Shown in pieces: positions 48,621-58,506 of a DNA stretch of 64,000 nucleotides; the first letter of the stretch is position 1; each line of letters opens with the position of its first letter. The notes beneath the pieces are model-generated. The model ran no database searches. It was not told where the DNA came from and worked only from the letters and a program-made list of their open reading frames with translations. The position numbers and the translations under genes were made by a program. Origin of the DNA: Candidatus Kryptobacter tengchongensis (lineage in GTDB: Bacteria > Bacteroidota > Ignavibacteria > Kryptoniales > Kryptoniaceae); assembly GCA_001485605.1 (NCBI GenBank), contig FAON01000011.1, forward strand, positions 124,001 to 188,000, given 5' to 3'.

Positions 48621-48693
48621 AAGTGTTTCATCCTCTATTGTTTATTTTTACTTTTCCGAATGACCTTTTTATGCCATTTGTTGTCCTCGCCAT
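48621..48693. repeat. Direct repeat copy A flanking the HEAT-repeat gene
   Basis: 73 bp that match 50049-50122 with two substitutions in the 56-bp main block (48638-48693), an identical 11-bp end AAGTGTTTCAT, and a 6- versus 7-bp unmatched part between. It lies just after the HEAT gene's stop codon. In copy B the same sequence is the HEAT gene's leader and start codon (ATGAAACACTT on the minus strand). Confidence 0.9.
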
Positions 48694-48697
48694 CCAC

Positions 48698-50059
48698 TTA
48701 TTTTTTTATAAATTTCTTTTTATTTTCTCGCCACCAGCTACTCCATCTGTTATGGTCTATACCAAAATCCTGTCCTGTAATCTTCCCAAGAGCCTCGGCT
48801 ACTGCATAGCGAACACGCCAATTTTCATCCTTCAATGCAGAAATAAGTGGTTCAACTGCACGAGGGTCTTTTATCTTTCCAAGTGCCTTGGCTGCTACTT
48901 CGCGGACACTACTATCTTCATCCTTCAATGCAGAAATAAGTGGTTCAACTGCACGAGGGTCTTTTATCTCTCCAAGTGCCTCGGCTACTGCCCAACGGAC
49001 AAACTCATCTTCATCTTTCAGTGCGAGGATAAGGAATTCAACTGCACAAGGATCTTTTATCTCTCTAAGTGCCCAAGCTGCTGCCCGACGAACAAACTCA
49101 TCTTCATCCTTCAATGCGAAGATAAGGAATTTAACCGCACGAGGATCTTTTATCTCTCTAAGTGCAGAAGCTACTGCCCAATGAACAAACTCATTTTCAT
49201 CCTTCAATGCGAAGATAAGCGGTTCAACTGCACGAGGATCTTTTATCTCTCCAAGTGCCTCGGCTACTGCATAGCGGACATTACTATCTTCATCCTTCAA
49301 TGCGAAGATAAGCGGTTCAACTGCACGAGTGTCTTTTACCTTTCCAAGTGCCCAAGCTGCTGCATAGCGGACACGCCTATCTTCATCCTCCAATGCAGAG
49401 ATAAATTCTGGGACAGCCTTCCTTGCCTCCTCAGTCTCATTCCACCTCGGATTAATCTTCTCAAGTGCCCAAGCCGCTGCCTTGCGAACCTCCTCATCTT
49501 TATCTTTCAATGCAAAGATAAGTGGTCCAACCGCACGAGGATCTTTTATCTCTCCAAGTGCCTTGGCCGCTGCCCAGCGGACAATCTCGTCTTCATCCTT
49601 CAATGCATAAATTATAGGAGATATTCCATGTAAATACCCAACAAATATAAATAGTTCCGGCAAAAAACCTTTTTTAAATACCTCCATAAAAGGTGCATCA
49701 TCGGGAGCTTTAAATGAAGAAAATGAGTTTATACTCTCAAATGGTCCTACGCTGGAGGAAAATTCTTTAGAAAGTGTCTTTTCACCCCCGGAGAAAACTA
49801 TTTTCACTTTTATAGTGGCCTGTGTCCAACGGTACTCACTTCCACCAAAACGAGCGATACTATAATATGCTCCTCCAGGGATACCTTCTGCCTCAATCGT
49901 AAAAGTTGCATTATAATCTCTCGCATCTTCTCCTACTACCTCATAACCAGCATACTCCAGTATCCTTTTTGTATATTCAAAAAACGGAAGACTCACCATC
50001 TCTGCATTCTCATATCTCTGACTTACCACAACGCGAATAATTTCGGTAAAGTGTTTCAT
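48698..50059 (-). CDS. HEAT-repeat (PBS-lyase-like) protein
   Basis: 453 aa. Residues 1-145 form an alpha/beta region without recognised motifs ([18 protein letters not shown]...). The rest is nine HEAT/PBS repeats of about 31 residues with the pattern [29 protein letters not shown]. These make a curved scaffold for protein binding. At DNA level the repeats are almost identical with a 93-nt period, which also leaves a long but meaningless open frame on the plus strand (48623-49633). No signal peptide. The gene is bracketed by direct repeats at 48621-48693 and 50049-50122. Confidence 0.86.
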
Positions 50060-51850: not shown

Positions 51851-53143
51851 TTACTTGGTTATACTTCTTACAGCCTCACTTACCCAAATCTTTTCAACCC
51901 TTGCATCTTTTTTCAATTTCCTTGCCATTTCATTCGCCTGTTCAATTGAATCAAAAAATCCGACCCGAACACGATACCAATTTCCACCCTTCCATTCAAC
52001 AAACGCCCTCTCAACAAACGCATTATAACCCTTTTTCTTCAAATCACTTGCAAGAGCATCAGCTAACTTTTTATCTTGAAATGAAGCAACCTGAATCACA
52101 TAACTTTTCCCTACCTTTGGAATCGGCTTTGAAATACTTGGCTTCTCGGGCTTTGGAGTTGTAATAACTGGCTGTGGTTTTCTTTCCTCACTTACAGGCG
52201 GAGTTTCCACCCTTGGCTTGACCTCTGGCGTCGTCACAATAACTTCTTCTGGCTGTTTAAATTCAACTTTGCTTGTCTTTTTACCTTCACCCCAAAGATG
52301 AATATAACCATACTGATTCAGGAGAAATATAACCCCGCCAACAAAGATTAAAAACACCACAAAAAGAAAAACCCAAAAACCTGTTCGCTTGTTGTTTTCT
52401 TCCTCATATTCAAACGCCATAGATGGCACCTCCTCTTTTTGTGTATCATCAAAAAATTTTTTGGATGTTTTTTTCTCCGGCTGCTGTCGTGGTTCTTCGG
52501 TTAAATCAAATTCTGGCATTTTTACCTCCTTATTATTAGTTTTTATTTTATCTTCATACATCTCCTCGCCATTTTTAATCATCCTAACATTTTGAAAAAC
52601 ATCAAAAACTGGAACATCAATATCTATATCCTCAAACCTTTCAACCGCTTTAGATTCATCAGGCAAATAAAGGTAATCTTCCCCATCTTTAAGTTTAGAA
52701 ATTTTAAACTCCTCAACAACTGGTTCTTCTTCCACCGCATTAAATTCAATTTTTACATCTTCCTGTTTTTTCCCCGACTCAAAAAATGTGAGATTGAACT
52801 CATCCAAATCTTTCTCTTCAACAACTGCTGATTGAGCCTTGACGACAACTGGTTTCAGATTCTTATACTTTATGTTGACCTTCTCAAGGAAAATTTTTGC
52901 TGGTGAAAAGCTAACAACAATTTTTGATGGGATGACTTTTTCAAATCCTGTCTTTGGGTCAAAAACTCTTCTTGTCTTTCGCGCTTTTTCTTTGAACTCG
53001 CCAAAACCGGAAATTCTAACGCTTTGTCCCGATTTCAGAACTTTTACAAATCTTTGAATAAATTTATCATAAAACAACTTCGCTTCATCATAGGAAATCC
53101 CCGCACGCTTTGACAGAGAATTTAAAAATTCATTTTTATCCAT
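51851..53143 (-). CDS. HU-like DNA-binding domain / transmembrane / SPOR fusion protein
   Basis: 430 aa. Residues 1-90 form a HU/IHF fold (ISGFGEFKEKARKTR and FDPKTGFEK arm). An acidic linker (about 105-250) leads to a single TM helix (256-276, WVFLFVVFLIFVGGVIFLL), then a Pro-rich periplasmic spacer and a SPOR domain (346-424, SYVIQVASFQDKKLADAL ... YRVRVGFFDS). SPOR binds denuded peptidoglycan at the septum. The protein would thus reach from DNA in the cytoplasm to peptidoglycan in the periplasm. It starts nine bases after a stand-alone HU gene. HU-SPOR fusions occur in Bacteroidota, often with CCDC81-like HU; function is untested to my knowledge. Confidence 0.88.
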   Translation of the reverse strand: MDKNEFLNSLSKRAGISYDEAKLFYDKFIQRFVKVLKSGQSVRISGFGEFKEKARKTRRVFDPKTGFEKVIPSKIVVSFSPAKIFLEKVNIKYKNLKPVVVKAQSAVVEEKDLDEFNLTFFESGKKQEDVKIEFNAVEEEPVVEEFKISKLKDGEDYLYLPDESKAVERFEDIDIDVPVFDVFQNVRMIKNGEEMYEDKIKTNNKEVKMPEFDLTEEPRQQPEKKTSKKFFDDTQKEEVPSMAFEYEEENNKRTGFWVFLFVVFLIFVGGVIFLLNQYGYIHLWGEGKKTSKVEFKQPEEVIVTTPEVKPRVETPPVSEERKPQPVITTPKPEKPSISKPIPKVGKSYVIQVASFQDKKLADALASDLKKKGYNAFVERAFVEWKGGNWYRVRVGFFDSIEQANEMARKLKKDARVEKIWVSEAVRSITK

Positions 53144-53151
53144 GAAAAAAC

Positions 53152-53430
53152 CTACCTATTGTTAATTGCGCTAATTATTGATTTACTTGGCTTGAAATAA
53201 GGATACTCTTTGGGTGGCAAAATCAATTCCTCGCCAGTTTTTGGATTGCGCCCCTTTCTGCTTGCCCTATGTTTTACAGTGAAAACCCCGAATCTGAATA
53301 AATTTAACTTTTTCTCCTTTATCAAAATTTCAGATACGAGATTAAAAAACGCATCAAGAACTCTTTCCGTCTTTGCCACGCTCCACTTCATATCTTTCGC
53401 AAGCAACTTTGTAAATTCATCTTTGGTCAT
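53152..53430 (-). CDS. HU/IHF-family DNA-binding protein
   Basis: 92 aa, normal size. N-terminal helices (MTKDEFTKLLAKDMKWS) and the beta-arm core (FRFGVFTVKHRASRKGRNPKTGEE) with the conserved RNPxTGE and a Pro-rich arm that intercalates in DNA. It bends and compacts DNA as a dimer. A perfect GGAGG site precedes the ATG. Directly followed by the HU-SPOR gene, so the two may form heterodimers. Confidence 0.93.
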   Translation of the reverse strand: MTKDEFTKLLAKDMKWSVAKTERVLDAFFNLVSEILIKEKKLNLFRFGVFTVKHRASRKGRNPKTGEELILPPKEYPYFKPSKSIISAINNR

Positions 53431-53449
53431 CTTAAAACCTCCAACTTAT

Positions 53450-55117
53450 TTAAAACCTATATTCTACTCCACCAATGACCACAATATCTGGTTCAAGATA
53501 ACTCTGCCATAGATAAAACCTCTGTGCAAATAAATTATCAAAATTCACAAAAACTTTAAAATTCCTGAAAACCTCATACTCACTTCTCAAATTAGCAAGA
53601 GCAAAACCTTTCAATTCGTCTCCCTCAAAGTTATAGACTCTACTACTAATTAAATTAATTTCCAGATTAATTGCAAGTCCAAACCCAAATTTATGCCCAT
53701 ACCCAAGATTTGCAGAAAAATTAGGATAATATGGGACTGGCTTTTTACTTCTTGCGTTATATGAAGAATTTAAAATGACCCCGAAAATAAATTCACTCCG
53801 ACGATAATTTAAATATCCCGAACCTTTCAACTCAATAAATTGAACTCGCTCAAACTCAACTGAATAGAAACCTTTTTTATACTCAACATAAACTGGGAAA
53901 TTTTTGAATGCTCTAAAATTCAATCCCGCATCAAGACCAATACCCCCCTTCCCATACCTCACGCCAAACCCAAAATTGAAATATCCATCTGGATGAACGA
54001 TGTTTAGATTTTTCGTCAAAAATCTGTTCGCCTTTAAATGATTAAAAATGGTCAAATTTAAAACTTCTGGAGCAAAAAAGGCATATAATTGCGTTTCCTT
54101 CCCTGCAAGATATTTAAATGAAACATCTGGATAAATCCTCAACCCCGTCATCATATCAGAATTTTTAAAGGAAAATAACTTAACCCCAAAATCAAGCCAA
54201 TAACTTCTTCCAATTTCAAAAAATTCAAGCAAATTTCCAGCAAATAAAGCAAGCTTAAAAAATTTCCCCTGTGAAGATGTATAATCAGCGTTAAACCTCA
54301 AACTCAAAAAATCAACAGCACGCCTAAAGTTAAAACTAAAATCAAATCTTTTCTCCCGCCCATCAAACCTTGAACTTTCATAGTTTTCAATTGTATCAAG
54401 CACGGTAAAAATTGAATATCTAACCCTCAAATCATAATCAAAAAATTTTCTGTATGGTGACTCAAGCGAAAACATTAAACTTAAATTATTCATGTTCCTG
54501 TGAAATGATGGGACGGGAGAACCGTAAAATCCAAAACTATATGTCCAATAGTCCATCGTGCTTGAAATTTTAGAATCAGCAAGCCAATTAAAAATTTTAT
54601 CCCTGATTTGTGGAAGATAAAACTTAGCACCAATTGAGAACTGGTTTTGTATATAATCAGCGTTCTCAATAAAACCTTGACTTGAGCGATGATAAAAATT
54701 TGAGTTTACAAACAAACCTTTAAAAACTTTCCCCTGAACCATCCCATCAAAATATGCAGTCAAATACCTCCCCACACCAGCTTTAAATTTTGCAACCGAG
54801 CTTTCCTCTGAAAGTTTTACATAATCATCCTTCCAAGTTTTGATAGAGACATCAGAACTGATTTTTTCGCCGTGTAAAATCTCATAGTGTTTCAAATCCA
54901 CTTTAGGGAGGTTAATCTCATTAGATTCAATTTTTTGTCCAGATTCAATTTCAATTGTCTCCCGTCCCGTTATAACAAATTCGGGAAGGACAAATTCATT
55001 TTTCGTTTCTCTTAACGCTGTCGTATCAACCTTAAATCTTCTCTCTTCAGGTTTCACCTCCTGCGCGAAAAGATTCAGTGAAGAAAAGAACAAAAATGTA
55101 AAGATAACTTTTTTCAT
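53450..55117 (-). CDS. Outer-membrane beta-barrel protein of unknown function
   Basis: About 555 aa. Signal peptide (KKVIFTFLFFSSLNLFA), a short acidic/Pro-rich periplasmic segment (about 20-95), then roughly 450 residues of alternating strands rich in Tyr, Phe and Asn, ending GGVEYRF as in barrels inserted by BamA. No TonB plug domain is visible. I start at the ATG at 55117; another lies three codons upstream. It sits between cytochrome c and HU genes and is likely co-transcribed with the TPR gene. Confidence 0.75.
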   Translation of the reverse strand: MKKVIFTFLFFSSLNLFAQEVKPEERRFKVDTTALRETKNEFVLPEFVITGRETIEIESGQKIESNEINLPKVDLKHYEILHGEKISSDVSIKTWKDDYVKLSEESSVAKFKAGVGRYLTAYFDGMVQGKVFKGLFVNSNFYHRSSQGFIENADYIQNQFSIGAKFYLPQIRDKIFNWLADSKISSTMDYWTYSFGFYGSPVPSFHRNMNNLSLMFSLESPYRKFFDYDLRVRYSIFTVLDTIENYESSRFDGREKRFDFSFNFRRAVDFLSLRFNADYTSSQGKFFKLALFAGNLLEFFEIGRSYWLDFGVKLFSFKNSDMMTGLRIYPDVSFKYLAGKETQLYAFFAPEVLNLTIFNHLKANRFLTKNLNIVHPDGYFNFGFGVRYGKGGIGLDAGLNFRAFKNFPVYVEYKKGFYSVEFERVQFIELKGSGYLNYRRSEFIFGVILNSSYNARSKKPVPYYPNFSANLGYGHKFGFGLAINLEINLISSRVYNFEGDELKGFALANLRSEYEVFRNFKVFVNFDNLFAQRFYLWQSYLEPDIVVIGGVEYRF

Positions 55118-55129
55118 ACTGTGCAAAAT

Positions 55130-55513
55130 TTATTTTAATGCACCTTTAATCTGTGGTTTGGTTTGTCCACGATGGCATGTATAGCAATCAACCACCTCAG
55201 CGCCTTCCCAGTTGATGAAATCCCGATTTATCGTCATAACCATTTTAAGCATCACTCTTGCTTTTTTCTTTGTTTCCTTGACATCGCTCGCATAATTGTT
55301 TACATCGTGACAGTAATTGCACTTAACACCAAGTGCATCTGCAATCCCTTCCATAATTTTTTGCAGTTGTTCCTTTGATTGAACCTCCGTCAAAACTTGA
55401 AGATTCCGCCCGAATCTTCTTTGAGATTGTGAATTCGTTAAATCAACCGCAACGACTAACCCAATTATAACCAAAAATATAAACGATGTATAAAAAAGAG
55501 CTGTCTTTCTCAT
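55130..55513 (-). CDS. Membrane-anchored diheme c-type cytochrome
   Basis: 127 aa. One N-terminal TM helix or uncleaved signal (about 6-24), then two CxxCH haem sites: CNYCH and CYTCH. The layout (LQVLTEVQSKEQLQKIMEGI, CNYCHDVNNYASD, MLKMVMTINRDF, CYTCHRGQ) matches the family related to the photosynthetic reaction-centre cytochrome subunit that also occurs in non-phototrophs. It carries electrons in the periplasm. It sits two bases after the TPR gene, so it is coupled to it. Confidence 0.88.
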   Translation of the reverse strand: MRKTALFYTSFIFLVIIGLVVAVDLTNSQSQRRFGRNLQVLTEVQSKEQLQKIMEGIADALGVKCNYCHDVNNYASDVKETKKKARVMLKMVMTINRDFINWEGAEVVDCYTCHRGQTKPQIKGALK

Positions 55514-55515
55514 TT

Positions 55516-58506
55516 TTAACCTGTTATTTTTGTTTTTAATTGTTCAAGTTTTTCAATAACCTTGCTTCTCATTTCGTCACTTATGTTCATTTTCAAGAGC
55601 TCATTTAAAAAATGTCCGGCTTTTGCATAATCGCCTTTGATTTCATAGCATTGTGCGATGCGATAGTAAGCCATCGGCAAAAAATTAACATATTCTCCAT
55701 AAAGATATCTCACCCTCAAAAACTGAAGTATAGCCTCATCAACATTCCCGAGTTTAAAAAATGACTCAGCATAAAGATATTGCGCCTGTGCAGAAACTTC
55801 ATCCGTTGCCCTGTGCAAAATAACGGGCTTTAAAATTTCAACTGCGTCGTCAATTTTATCATAATTCAATAAAATTTCAGCTGATTTAACCCTTGCTCTA
55901 TCGGCAAAATCGGAAGTTTGAAATCCATTTATCACCTCTCTAAATTTTCTCAAAGCGTTTGCGGTATCACCAAGTGAAAAATAGTTTAACCCCATAAGGT
56001 ATAGAACCTCATCATAAAATTTTGCCCTCGTTTCAATTTTCCCGAGATGCTCTATTGCTTCAGCAAATTCACCAGAATTATATTTCATCCATCCAAGCCT
56101 AAGAAGTGCACTTTGAGAAAATTCGTTTAGCGGATACTTTACGATAAGACTTTTATAAATTTCCATCGCCTCAAAATTTCTTCCCATCAGCTCATAAGCC
56201 CTGCCAAGCTCATAATAAACCTTTGGCAAAAATTTGCTCTCTGGATAGTTTGAGACGAATTTTTTGTAAAGATTTACACCTTCAAGATAATTCCCCTGTG
56301 AAATTTGAAACTCCGCCTTCTTGAATGAAGCAATTTCAAGAAACTCTGGATTTTTGCTCTTTGAGATAAGTTCATCAACAAGATCTGGGTTTTTCCCCTG
56401 TGCCGAAAGTGAATATTGAATTCCTGAGATCGCATCACCTGCATATTTTGAATCCGGGTATTTTTCAATCACTTCAAGATACGTTTTTATGGCAAGTTCA
56501 TATTTCCCCATGTTATAATAAGCATCTCCAATTCCGTAAAGCGCTCGGGGAGCAAGTTCGCTATTCGGATATCTCTCAACAACCTCACGGAATGAGTTTA
56601 TTGCAGGGGTATAATTTTTATCTTGGAAATAAATCCAACCGATTTGATACCTTGCCGACGGAACAAGCGCTGAATTGGGGAATTTATTAAGCAAAAGATT
56701 TAACATTTCAAGCGATCGCAACATTTGACGCTGACGGAAATAAACTTGGGAAAGTTGAAAATATGCATAATCAGCTCCTTCTTGATCTCCGAAAAGACGA
56801 ACAAAGGAAAGGTAATTCAATTCCGCTTGTTTGTAATTTTTCATCATAAAATAAGAATCTGCAAGCCTAAGCCGTGCATCAAGCGCCCTTTTACCGATTG
56901 AGTATTGACTTAAAAATTTTTCAAATTGTTTTACCGCTTCGGCATAATTCCCTTCTTTAAAATATGACCAAGCAATTGAGTAAAGCGCTTGCTCTGCGTT
57001 TGTGCTTTTCGGAAAGCGATTTAAAATCTCAATGTAACATCTTCTTGCGTTTTTATAATCCCCAAGTTTGTAATATAATTCGCCCGCGTACAAAAGAGCA
57101 AACTCAACATTTACATTATTTGGAAACTTTGATAAAAATTCCTCAAAAACTTTTATTGCCTCGTTAAATTTTCCATCCCTCATCAATGCAATCCCTTCAC
57201 TGTAAATGTTAACCGCTTCATTGTCACTTGAAAGTTCAAATTCATTCCTTATCATTCGCAGAATAGATGCACCTTTTGAATAATTCCCCATTCTTATATA
57301 AGATTGAGCAAGAAGTTCAAATGCTTTTATCTTAACATCGCTCGTATCTTCAAGATGAATTTTTTCAAGATGGGCAATTGCGCTATCATATTTCCCTTGT
57401 GAAAAATAAATCAAGCCAAGTTCATAATTTGCCCGAGCATAGAGATTTGTATAATTTCTGCTTCTCTCAATAAAATTCTTAAATACAGAAATTGCGCCAG
57501 CGGTATCACCTGCAACTTTTTTGACTTCTCCAAGGTAAAAAAGGGAAAGCCCAGCTATCTCACCATCTCCTTTTGAAAGTGAATCAAAAACTTGAATGGC
57601 TTCCGCATGTTTCCCTTGCTTATAATAAATCCAGCCAATTGAATAAGAGGCATGTTGTCTGAACTCACCGTTTGGAAATTTTTTCAAATAATCGTCATAA
57701 TAAAATTTTGCCGAATCATATAATCCAATTGCGTAATAGCTCTCGCCAAGAAGAAAAACAACCCTTTCATTTTCCCCTTCTTTCAGAGCCTCGCGAGCAA
57801 ATTCAATCGCATTTTCATAATTTTTCAACTTATAATAACATTCAGCAAGATTTAATCTCGCATCGTTAAGAATTTTTTCAAGTTTCCCTCTGCCTTCGCC
57901 AAATTTTTCAATCAGACTTTTATACTTTTCAATTGCTTCTTGAAACTTCCCCTGTTTATGAAGGATGAAACCAGCTGAAAAAATCGCAAAGGGCGCAACC
58001 TCACCCGTAGTATCAACCTCATAAGAAAGCGTGTAATATCTCAAGGCATTTCTTAAATCATTCTGTTCAAAATAAATTTCACCAAGGTAATACGCAGATT
58101 GAGAAATTAACAACTTATCTGATGATGTTTCAATTGCTTTTTTAAAATTTTCAATCGCCGAAATAAAATTTTTCCGCTTCAGGTATATCTCTGCGATTCT
58201 ATAGTTTGCTTTGTCTTTAAATCTTGTGCTCGGGAGGTTGGATAAAATGGAGATGTAAATTTTAAGGGCGGAGTCATATTCCCCAAGTTTGAACATTGAT
58301 TCAGCGCTAAAAAACTGTGCTTCTTCAACGAACTTACTTTCGGGATAATTTTTTATAAACTTCTGAAATTCGGTAAATGCAAGTTGATACATTCCATCTT
58401 CAAAGAGGGAATAAGCAAATTTAAAATCACGCATCTCCTGCAGATTTACCTGTGCAAGCATAAAAGTTGCCAGCGTAAAGAAGAGTAAACTAATTTTCTT
58501 TAACAT
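55516..58506 (-). CDS. Large TPR-repeat secreted protein
   Basis: 996 aa. Signal peptide (MLKKISLLFFTLATFMLA) and then about 25 tetratricopeptide repeats over the whole length, many with a YxxALxxFxxFLxxFPxS pattern like BamD and YbgF/CpoB. No catalytic or anchor domain is seen. It probably works as a periplasmic or outer-membrane-associated scaffold. First gene of the run leading to the diheme cytochrome, outer-membrane protein and HU genes. Confidence 0.88.
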   Translation of the reverse strand: MLKKISLLFFTLATFMLAQVNLQEMRDFKFAYSLFEDGMYQLAFTEFQKFIKNYPESKFVEEAQFFSAESMFKLGEYDSALKIYISILSNLPSTRFKDKANYRIAEIYLKRKNFISAIENFKKAIETSSDKLLISQSAYYLGEIYFEQNDLRNALRYYTLSYEVDTTGEVAPFAIFSAGFILHKQGKFQEAIEKYKSLIEKFGEGRGKLEKILNDARLNLAECYYKLKNYENAIEFAREALKEGENERVVFLLGESYYAIGLYDSAKFYYDDYLKKFPNGEFRQHASYSIGWIYYKQGKHAEAIQVFDSLSKGDGEIAGLSLFYLGEVKKVAGDTAGAISVFKNFIERSRNYTNLYARANYELGLIYFSQGKYDSAIAHLEKIHLEDTSDVKIKAFELLAQSYIRMGNYSKGASILRMIRNEFELSSDNEAVNIYSEGIALMRDGKFNEAIKVFEEFLSKFPNNVNVEFALLYAGELYYKLGDYKNARRCYIEILNRFPKSTNAEQALYSIAWSYFKEGNYAEAVKQFEKFLSQYSIGKRALDARLRLADSYFMMKNYKQAELNYLSFVRLFGDQEGADYAYFQLSQVYFRQRQMLRSLEMLNLLLNKFPNSALVPSARYQIGWIYFQDKNYTPAINSFREVVERYPNSELAPRALYGIGDAYYNMGKYELAIKTYLEVIEKYPDSKYAGDAISGIQYSLSAQGKNPDLVDELISKSKNPEFLEIASFKKAEFQISQGNYLEGVNLYKKFVSNYPESKFLPKVYYELGRAYELMGRNFEAMEIYKSLIVKYPLNEFSQSALLRLGWMKYNSGEFAEAIEHLGKIETRAKFYDEVLYLMGLNYFSLGDTANALRKFREVINGFQTSDFADRARVKSAEILLNYDKIDDAVEILKPVILHRATDEVSAQAQYLYAESFFKLGNVDEAILQFLRVRYLYGEYVNFLPMAYYRIAQCYEIKGDYAKAGHFLNELLKMNISDEMRSKVIEKLEQLKTKITG

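Follow-up and report, generated by a model that had tools for sequence, protein, structure and literature searches.

A small HU gene (HU1) followed by a gene encoding an HU domain (HU2), a transmembrane (TM) helix and a SPOR domain in one chain is found throughout the phylum Bacteroidota, and the pair carried by Kryptonia appears to represent a Bacteroidota protein family that is already known, but in an unfused form closer to DNA-binding HU. The pair described here is located in a 64,000-nucleotide stretch (the window) of a contig from the hot-spring bacterium Candidatus Kryptobacter tengchongensis, to which all coordinates refer. Sequence comparisons point to an obligate HU1:HU2 heterodimer, and the HU-SPOR gene seems to encode, in addition to the full-length product, a second, HU-less TM-SPOR version from a conserved internal start.

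Both genes map to the minus strand, and 8 bases separate the HU1 stop from the HU-SPOR start. HU1 (P0002, 53152-53430) encodes a stand-alone HU protein of 92 aa (PF00216, 3.2e-26) featuring the family motif LPPKE and a canonical arm, GRNPKTG, which is invariant in the four Kryptonia proteins compared; the gene is preceded by a GGAGG Shine-Dalgarno (SD) sequence (53438-53442). An earlier sequence-only reading of this DNA had listed it as an ordinary HU gene nine bases upstream of the HU-SPOR gene. The long form of the HU-SPOR protein (P0001, 51851-53143, weak SD) is 430 aa long. Its HU2 domain (residues 1-90, 52874-53143; PF00216, 1.2e-18), recognisable also by its contact positions, carries the arm RRVFDPKTG and runs into the motif VNIKYKNLKPVVV (residues 89-101, 52841-52879). 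Alignments revealed that this motif, in the form N.[KR][YF]..L.PV, is common to HU-SPOR proteins of other families: P0001 has VNIKYKNLKPV, the others INYKYVGMEPI or VNHRFAGLEPV, and N90 and Y93 are nearly invariant in A3. An acidic linker, predicted to be cytoplasmic, follows (residues 92-256, 52376-52870; 24 K/R vs 43 D/E over residues 94-250), with low pLDDT and no predicted structure. The single TM helix (residues 257-275, 52319-52375; mean Kyte-Doolittle value 3.03, AF2 helix at 251-284) is the only hydrophobic segment of the protein, and a proline-rich stretch, presumed periplasmic, leads from it to the SPOR domain (residues 346-413, 51905-52108; PF05036, 1.1e-17; pLDDT about 87), which includes Q351, F355, R391 and R393. 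The sequence-only reading had listed an HU fold, an acidic linker, one TM helix and a C-terminal SPOR domain in one chain; Pfam and hydropathy bear out all of these domains, but the linker comprises about 165 residues rather than the 145 then counted. Within the linker, Kryptonia proteins feature the sequences DIDVPVFDVF, DIEVPIFDVF or DVEVPVFEVF (P0001 residues 172-183; 52595-52630, minus strand), which resemble the FtsZ C-terminal peptide; the FtsZ protein of the genome carrying P0001 has LNVPAYIRR near its C-terminal end.

The pair is retained in five genomes of the same genus at 58-70% identity and is therefore not a chance open reading frame, and this conservation likewise rules out a sequencing artefact. 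Two plus-strand ORFs of 72 and 183 aa overlying the pair are antisense shadows. A lineage-specific duplication giving rise to HU1 and HU2 was ruled out by the tree, in which HU1 and HU2 proteins each group Kryptonia with family f12 (support 94/87 and 96/78). A Foldseek search with the AF2 model of P0001 retrieved the SPOR structures 1x60, 6ztg and 6i09, as well as the DNA-bound Anabaena HU 1p71. AF2 runs for both HU domains used four-row alignments and gave weak models; in P0001 the SPOR part is confident, and the HU part, though of low confidence, has its helices and strands in the expected sequence. Because of this low confidence, conclusions on the HU arms were drawn from alignments.

P0001 is best read as an N-in protein because SPOR ligands are periplasmic. 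The flanks of the Kryptonia TM helix are ambiguous, as either side has 2-4 basic residues. In short TM-SPOR relatives and in several proteins of families f32 and f23, basic residues are concentrated N-terminal to the helix (for example 8 to 0, 7 to 0 and 9 to 1). The proposed span of the inner membrane, with HU inside and SPOR outside, thus agrees with the charge pattern of the homologues. In the SPOR domain of RlpA, denuded glycan is bound by the conserved Gln Q270 and a basic cluster formed by R302, R309 and R311 (PMC6895207). Q351 and R391 of P0001, which are invariant in the eight sequences aligned, map by motif position to Q270 and to the R309/R311 cluster, indicating that the domain carries the predicted glycan-binding Gln and basic cluster. 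The protein scores 35.5 bits against the NCBIfam ftsN equivalog, below the cut-off of 107.65.

The five same-genus genomes and four f12 genomes have HU followed by HU-TM-SPOR with a gap of -4 to +10 bases, and two additional f12 genomes have the same arrangement. In a sample of 247 genomes of the phylum, 64 HU2 proteins occur among the matches listed. For 48 of these 64, found in 47 of the 247 genomes, a small HU1 match lies directly upstream. The HU1 profile picks up small HU genes upstream of HU-SPOR genes in other families, and the HU1 and HU2 genes adjoin wherever both were seen. Six of the other 16 listed HU2 proteins were looked at individually: three (L089, L145 and L146) proved to have a small HU gene upstream, one (L142) has two HU domains in a single chain, one (L147) starts at a contig end, and one (L143) is an HU-LysM-like protein with an HU gene upstream. 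Within the class, the pair is found in Kryptonia and f12 and, with longer chains, in families f7 and f14. The HU1 and HU2-SPOR pairs of f7 (L152, L153 and L155) and f14 (L148, L149 and L154), with chains up to 899 aa, adjoin a gene cluster unlike the Tol locus.

In other lineages, two HU domains, a TM helix and a SPOR domain are fused, an arrangement corresponding to Pfam HU-CCDC81_bac_1 and HU-CCDC81_bac_2 plus TM and SPOR. For instance, the relative L042 has PF18174 (bac_1), PF18175 (bac_2) and PF05036 in one chain. The Kryptonia proteins are not recovered by these models, as P0001 scores 19.5 bits against PF18175, below the 35-bit cut-off, and P0002 does not match PF18174 (cut-off 26 bits). 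Position-specific profiles indicate that Kryptonia HU2 is homologous to fused bac_2. Kryptonia HU2 scores 99.5 against the HU2 of other families vs 38.8 against their HU1; the latter HU2 proteins score 60.9 against fused HU2 and 28.5 against fused HU1; and the HU1 of other families scores 45.0 against fused HU1 and 25.1 against fused HU2. Profile probabilities are 99.1 for Kryptonia/f12 HU2 to other HU2 and 97.4 for other HU2 to fused bac_2, both exceeding the HU1 cross-match. For HU1, probabilities are 97.5 from Kryptonia to other families and 95.9 from these to fused bac_1, but only 12.7 for the direct comparison, and the Kryptonia HU1 profile scores 148 against housekeeping HU vs 62.5 against other HU1. 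The presumed equivalence of Kryptonia HU1 with the HU1 of other families rests on gene order and on the PP[KR][DE] motif.

In the numbering of Anabaena HU, HU1 keeps K53, R55, R58, G60, R61, N62, P63, K64, T65 and G66, K53 standing for R53. P0001 HU2 keeps K53, R55, R58, P63, K64, T65 and K83 and has V60, F61 and D62 at the tip. Much of the arm of this domain is thus kept in the alignment, except for R61 and N62, which are lost. By the same alignments, the unfused Kryptonia form appears to keep HU arms that most relatives have lost. In other families, HU1 lacks helix 1 and HU2 lacks the arm. Since each HU partner has lost what the other keeps, homodimers are hard to reconcile with the alignments. 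Moreover, no HU gene was found at any of the 14 sampled short TM-SPOR loci whose SPOR gene lacks HU2. Complementary loss and joint absence together indicate that the HU1:HU2 heterodimer may be obligate, and the earlier suggestion that the neighbouring HU is the dimer partner gains further support from the fused relatives.

Within the HU-SPOR gene, a second GGAGG sequence (52525-52529) precedes the ATG encoding M209, from which a short isoform of 222 aa, beginning MPEFDL and consisting of the TM and SPOR parts, is predicted (51851-52519, minus strand). All six Kryptonia genes carry GGAGG at the internal site, 5 nt from the ATG. Of the six f12 genes, four have GGAGG, spaced 8 nt from the ATG, and two have GGGAG. 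Five of the six Kryptonia genes have another internal GGAGG (52429-52433, minus strand), located 8 nt before the ATG of M242 (52420), a residue 15 positions upstream of the TM helix. The start of the long form, in comparison, has a weak SD and lies at or over the HU1 stop. The predicted short isoform matches stand-alone genes in size and start: sister families f2, f4, f6 and f17 possess at the same locus only a TM-SPOR gene, encoding 191-232 aa, which in f4, f6 and f17 starts MPDLNL or similar. The same motif scan found no internal start in f7 and f14, most genes of which fell outside its pre-filter. A recent addition of HU to a TM-SPOR gene was ruled out, as paired or fused HU-HU-SPOR proteins are spread through the phylum. 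In the simplest history, an old HU-HU-SPOR module gained the internal start in part of the class, and the front half was then lost in several families.

These features suggest a mechanism in which HU1 and the HU2 domain of the HU-TM-SPOR protein would form the heterodimer at the inner membrane, on its cytoplasmic side. The TM and SPOR parts would bring it to the septum, the site of denuded glycan accumulation, beside a Tol-type outer-membrane machine. With one arm canonical and the other modified, the Kryptonia heterodimer would most likely bend or hold non-specific DNA near the closing septum, a contact that may help the constricting cell to clear, orient or sense its chromosome terminus. Translation coupled to HU1 would produce the long form, whose weak start lies behind HU1, and would give 1:1 stoichiometry. 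The internal start, endowed with a strong ribosome-binding site, would yield a separate FtsN-like TM-SPOR isoform devoid of HU, so that the cell could tune what share of the septal SPOR protein is DNA-linked. We give roughly even weight, for and against, to the core of this proposal, namely that the two genes form one module in which a stoichiometric heterodimer tethers DNA to the septal wall beside a short FtsN-like isoform. More tentatively, and with a little less than even confidence, we propose that one gene gives two septal proteins, a DNA-tethered HU-TM-SPOR form heterodimerised with and coupled to the upstream HU, and an HU-less FtsN-like form, and that the HU-less sister families dropped the front half and kept the internal start as their gene start. 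If so, the ratio of the DNA-tethered to the HU-less form would link wall constriction to chromosome position.

Alternatively, division may depend on the short TM-SPOR isoform as the active protein. The HU part would then be an accessory specific to some lineages that controls how much of this isoform is present or where, such as a DNA-dependent brake on constriction resembling nucleoid occlusion. The retention of the TM-SPOR part alone in sister families and the conservation of the internal SD would both fit this role, which we consider a real but minority possibility; both HU domains, however, persist elsewhere in the phylum, fused or paired, even where their sequence has decayed, as is not expected of a recent accessory.

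The HU pair could also be a protein-protein adaptor, no longer acting mainly on DNA, through which a division partner in the cytoplasm is attached to the SPOR protein. An adaptor-type role has reportedly been proposed for eukaryotic CCDC81. Most families have a deletion of the HU2 arm and no HU1 tip motif, while the residues of the dimer core and the N.[KR][YF] motif stay. HU2 of f12 has SALLN or NALLN at its tip and has lost P63, and the net charge drops from +11 to +14 in Kryptonia to between 0 and +6. On these alignments, DNA binding need not be what the module is conserved for; since most of the family has lost the arms, its members may have protein docking in common, and only certain lineages may have retained DNA binding. 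We consider an adaptor less likely than not. In Kryptonia, HU1 has a fully canonical arm and HU2 keeps P63, T65, K83 and a strong positive charge, and NPQT arms are also retained by another HU pair, which is fused to a LysM-like domain.

As for the internal start, GGAGG-ATG might be an unused by-product of glutamate-rich codons, as the linkers are rich in glutamate and a random synonymous draw gives GGAGG at the internal site 6-13% of the time per gene. In the first scan, though, GGAGG was present at this site in nine of ten genes. Near an internal Met, it occupies 14 of 20 eligible codon sites; at the remaining eligible codons of these genes the count is 12 of 146 (Fisher 3e-9, a value that overstates the surprise because related gene rows are not independent), and at those of other ORFs in the window it is 20/257. 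Short homologues, moreover, share both the motif at which they begin and the SD, and we hold a codon by-product to be unlikely. That HU1 is an ordinary nucleoid protein placed here by chance while HU2 homodimerises is most improbable, since, despite the closeness of its profile to housekeeping HU, the genome has a separate housekeeping HU, dozens of genomes have HU1 immediately before HU2-SPOR, and HU1 is absent at sampled loci lacking HU2 and fused to HU2 in many families.

The genome encodes three PF00216 proteins, i.e., HU1, HU-SPOR and the housekeeping HU, which is located on another contig; SPOR matches occur at three further places, and FtsZ is present. Upstream of HU1 lie genes for an outer-membrane beta-barrel-like protein (53450-55126, minus strand), which has no Pfam match, and for a TPR protein (55516-58506, minus strand; Pfam TPR). 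The barrel gene holds this position in f12, f6, f32 and other loci as well, and the TPR gene precedes it in several loci. The genes run barrel, HU, HU-SPOR, TolQ/ExbB and TolR/ExbD in f12 as in a large number of other families, the link to Tol being seen at L012, L072 and other loci. Compared with the full arrangement starting from TPR, the TPR/barrel side is kept here and the tolQ-tolR side in f12; a tolQ-tolR-tonB-like cluster in the Kryptonium genome sits on another contig. In Sinorhizobium meliloti, a TolQ pull-down enriched the FtsN-like SPOR protein RgsS (PMC7327166), which, taken with the TolQ/TolR neighbourhood of the relatives, would fit a role in late constriction. The cytoplasmic part of RgsS also varies between families (PMC7327166). 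Like RgsS and E. coli FtsN and DedD, the Kryptonia protein features a single TM helix, a periplasmic linker and a C-terminal SPOR domain, and its relatives have a Tol-type gene neighbourhood; it differs from them in having a cytoplasmic HU domain and a partner HU, and in scoring below the ftsN cut-off. Compared with HU/IHF proteins (PF00216), both HU units are full domains with a canonical (HU1) or partial (HU2) arm, but HU2 is predicted to be tethered to membrane and wall, has lost R61/N62, and is encoded next to its partner.

Among the closest known systems is the fused HU-CCDC81-SPOR family, for which Burroughs, Kaur, Zhang and Aravind (Cell Cycle 16:1093, 2017) reportedly predicted a role in chromosome partition. 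As fused relatives are said to have been given this role earlier, the idea of a DNA-to-wall link is already known as a prediction. The fused proteins have the same order (HU1, HU2, TM, C-terminal SPOR), and several have a barrel gene upstream and ExbB/TolQ downstream. The Kryptonia form differs in consisting of two genes that do not reach the bac_1 and bac_2 cut-offs, in keeping the arms and helix 1, and, together with f12, in having the internal start. Our literature search retrieved no experimental work on HU-SPOR proteins. In this limited search, which is weak evidence of novelty, we found no description of the unfused arm-bearing form, of complementary decay with joint absence, or of the conserved internal start. 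Little is established about how Bacteroidota coordinate wall constriction with the segregation of their chromosomes, and we know of no tested DNA-wall linker in this phylum. Because its arms are kept, its two proteins are separable and its source is a thermophile, the Kryptonia form is a practical one for asking whether HU-SPOR proteins really bind DNA. The phylum-wide pairing may offer a clean case of an obligate HU heterodimer, and the internal start, if used, would be a simple genetic switch between a DNA-linked and a free SPOR protein.

Family f32 carries a second type of HU pair (L143:2389-3910, minus strand; L144:1967-3959, plus strand), in which an HU protein of 97-104 aa is followed by an HU domain, an acidic linker, a TM helix and a LysM-like C terminus. 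Both an NPQTG or NPQTQ arm and an NA.YAH motif are featured. The C terminus is a putative LysM, on which Pfam makes no call at E 0.05; if this reading is true, the f32 pair would link DNA to the wall in parallel. The window also has a gene for a small CXXCH cytochrome-like protein (PF02276, 1.8e-17; 55130-55513, minus strand), inserted between the TPR gene and the barrel gene, which are adjacent in several relatives. Downstream of the pair, a HEAT-repeat protein with near-identical repeats is encoded at 48698-50059 (minus strand), and the long plus-strand ORF lying over it (48623-49633) looks like an antisense shadow.
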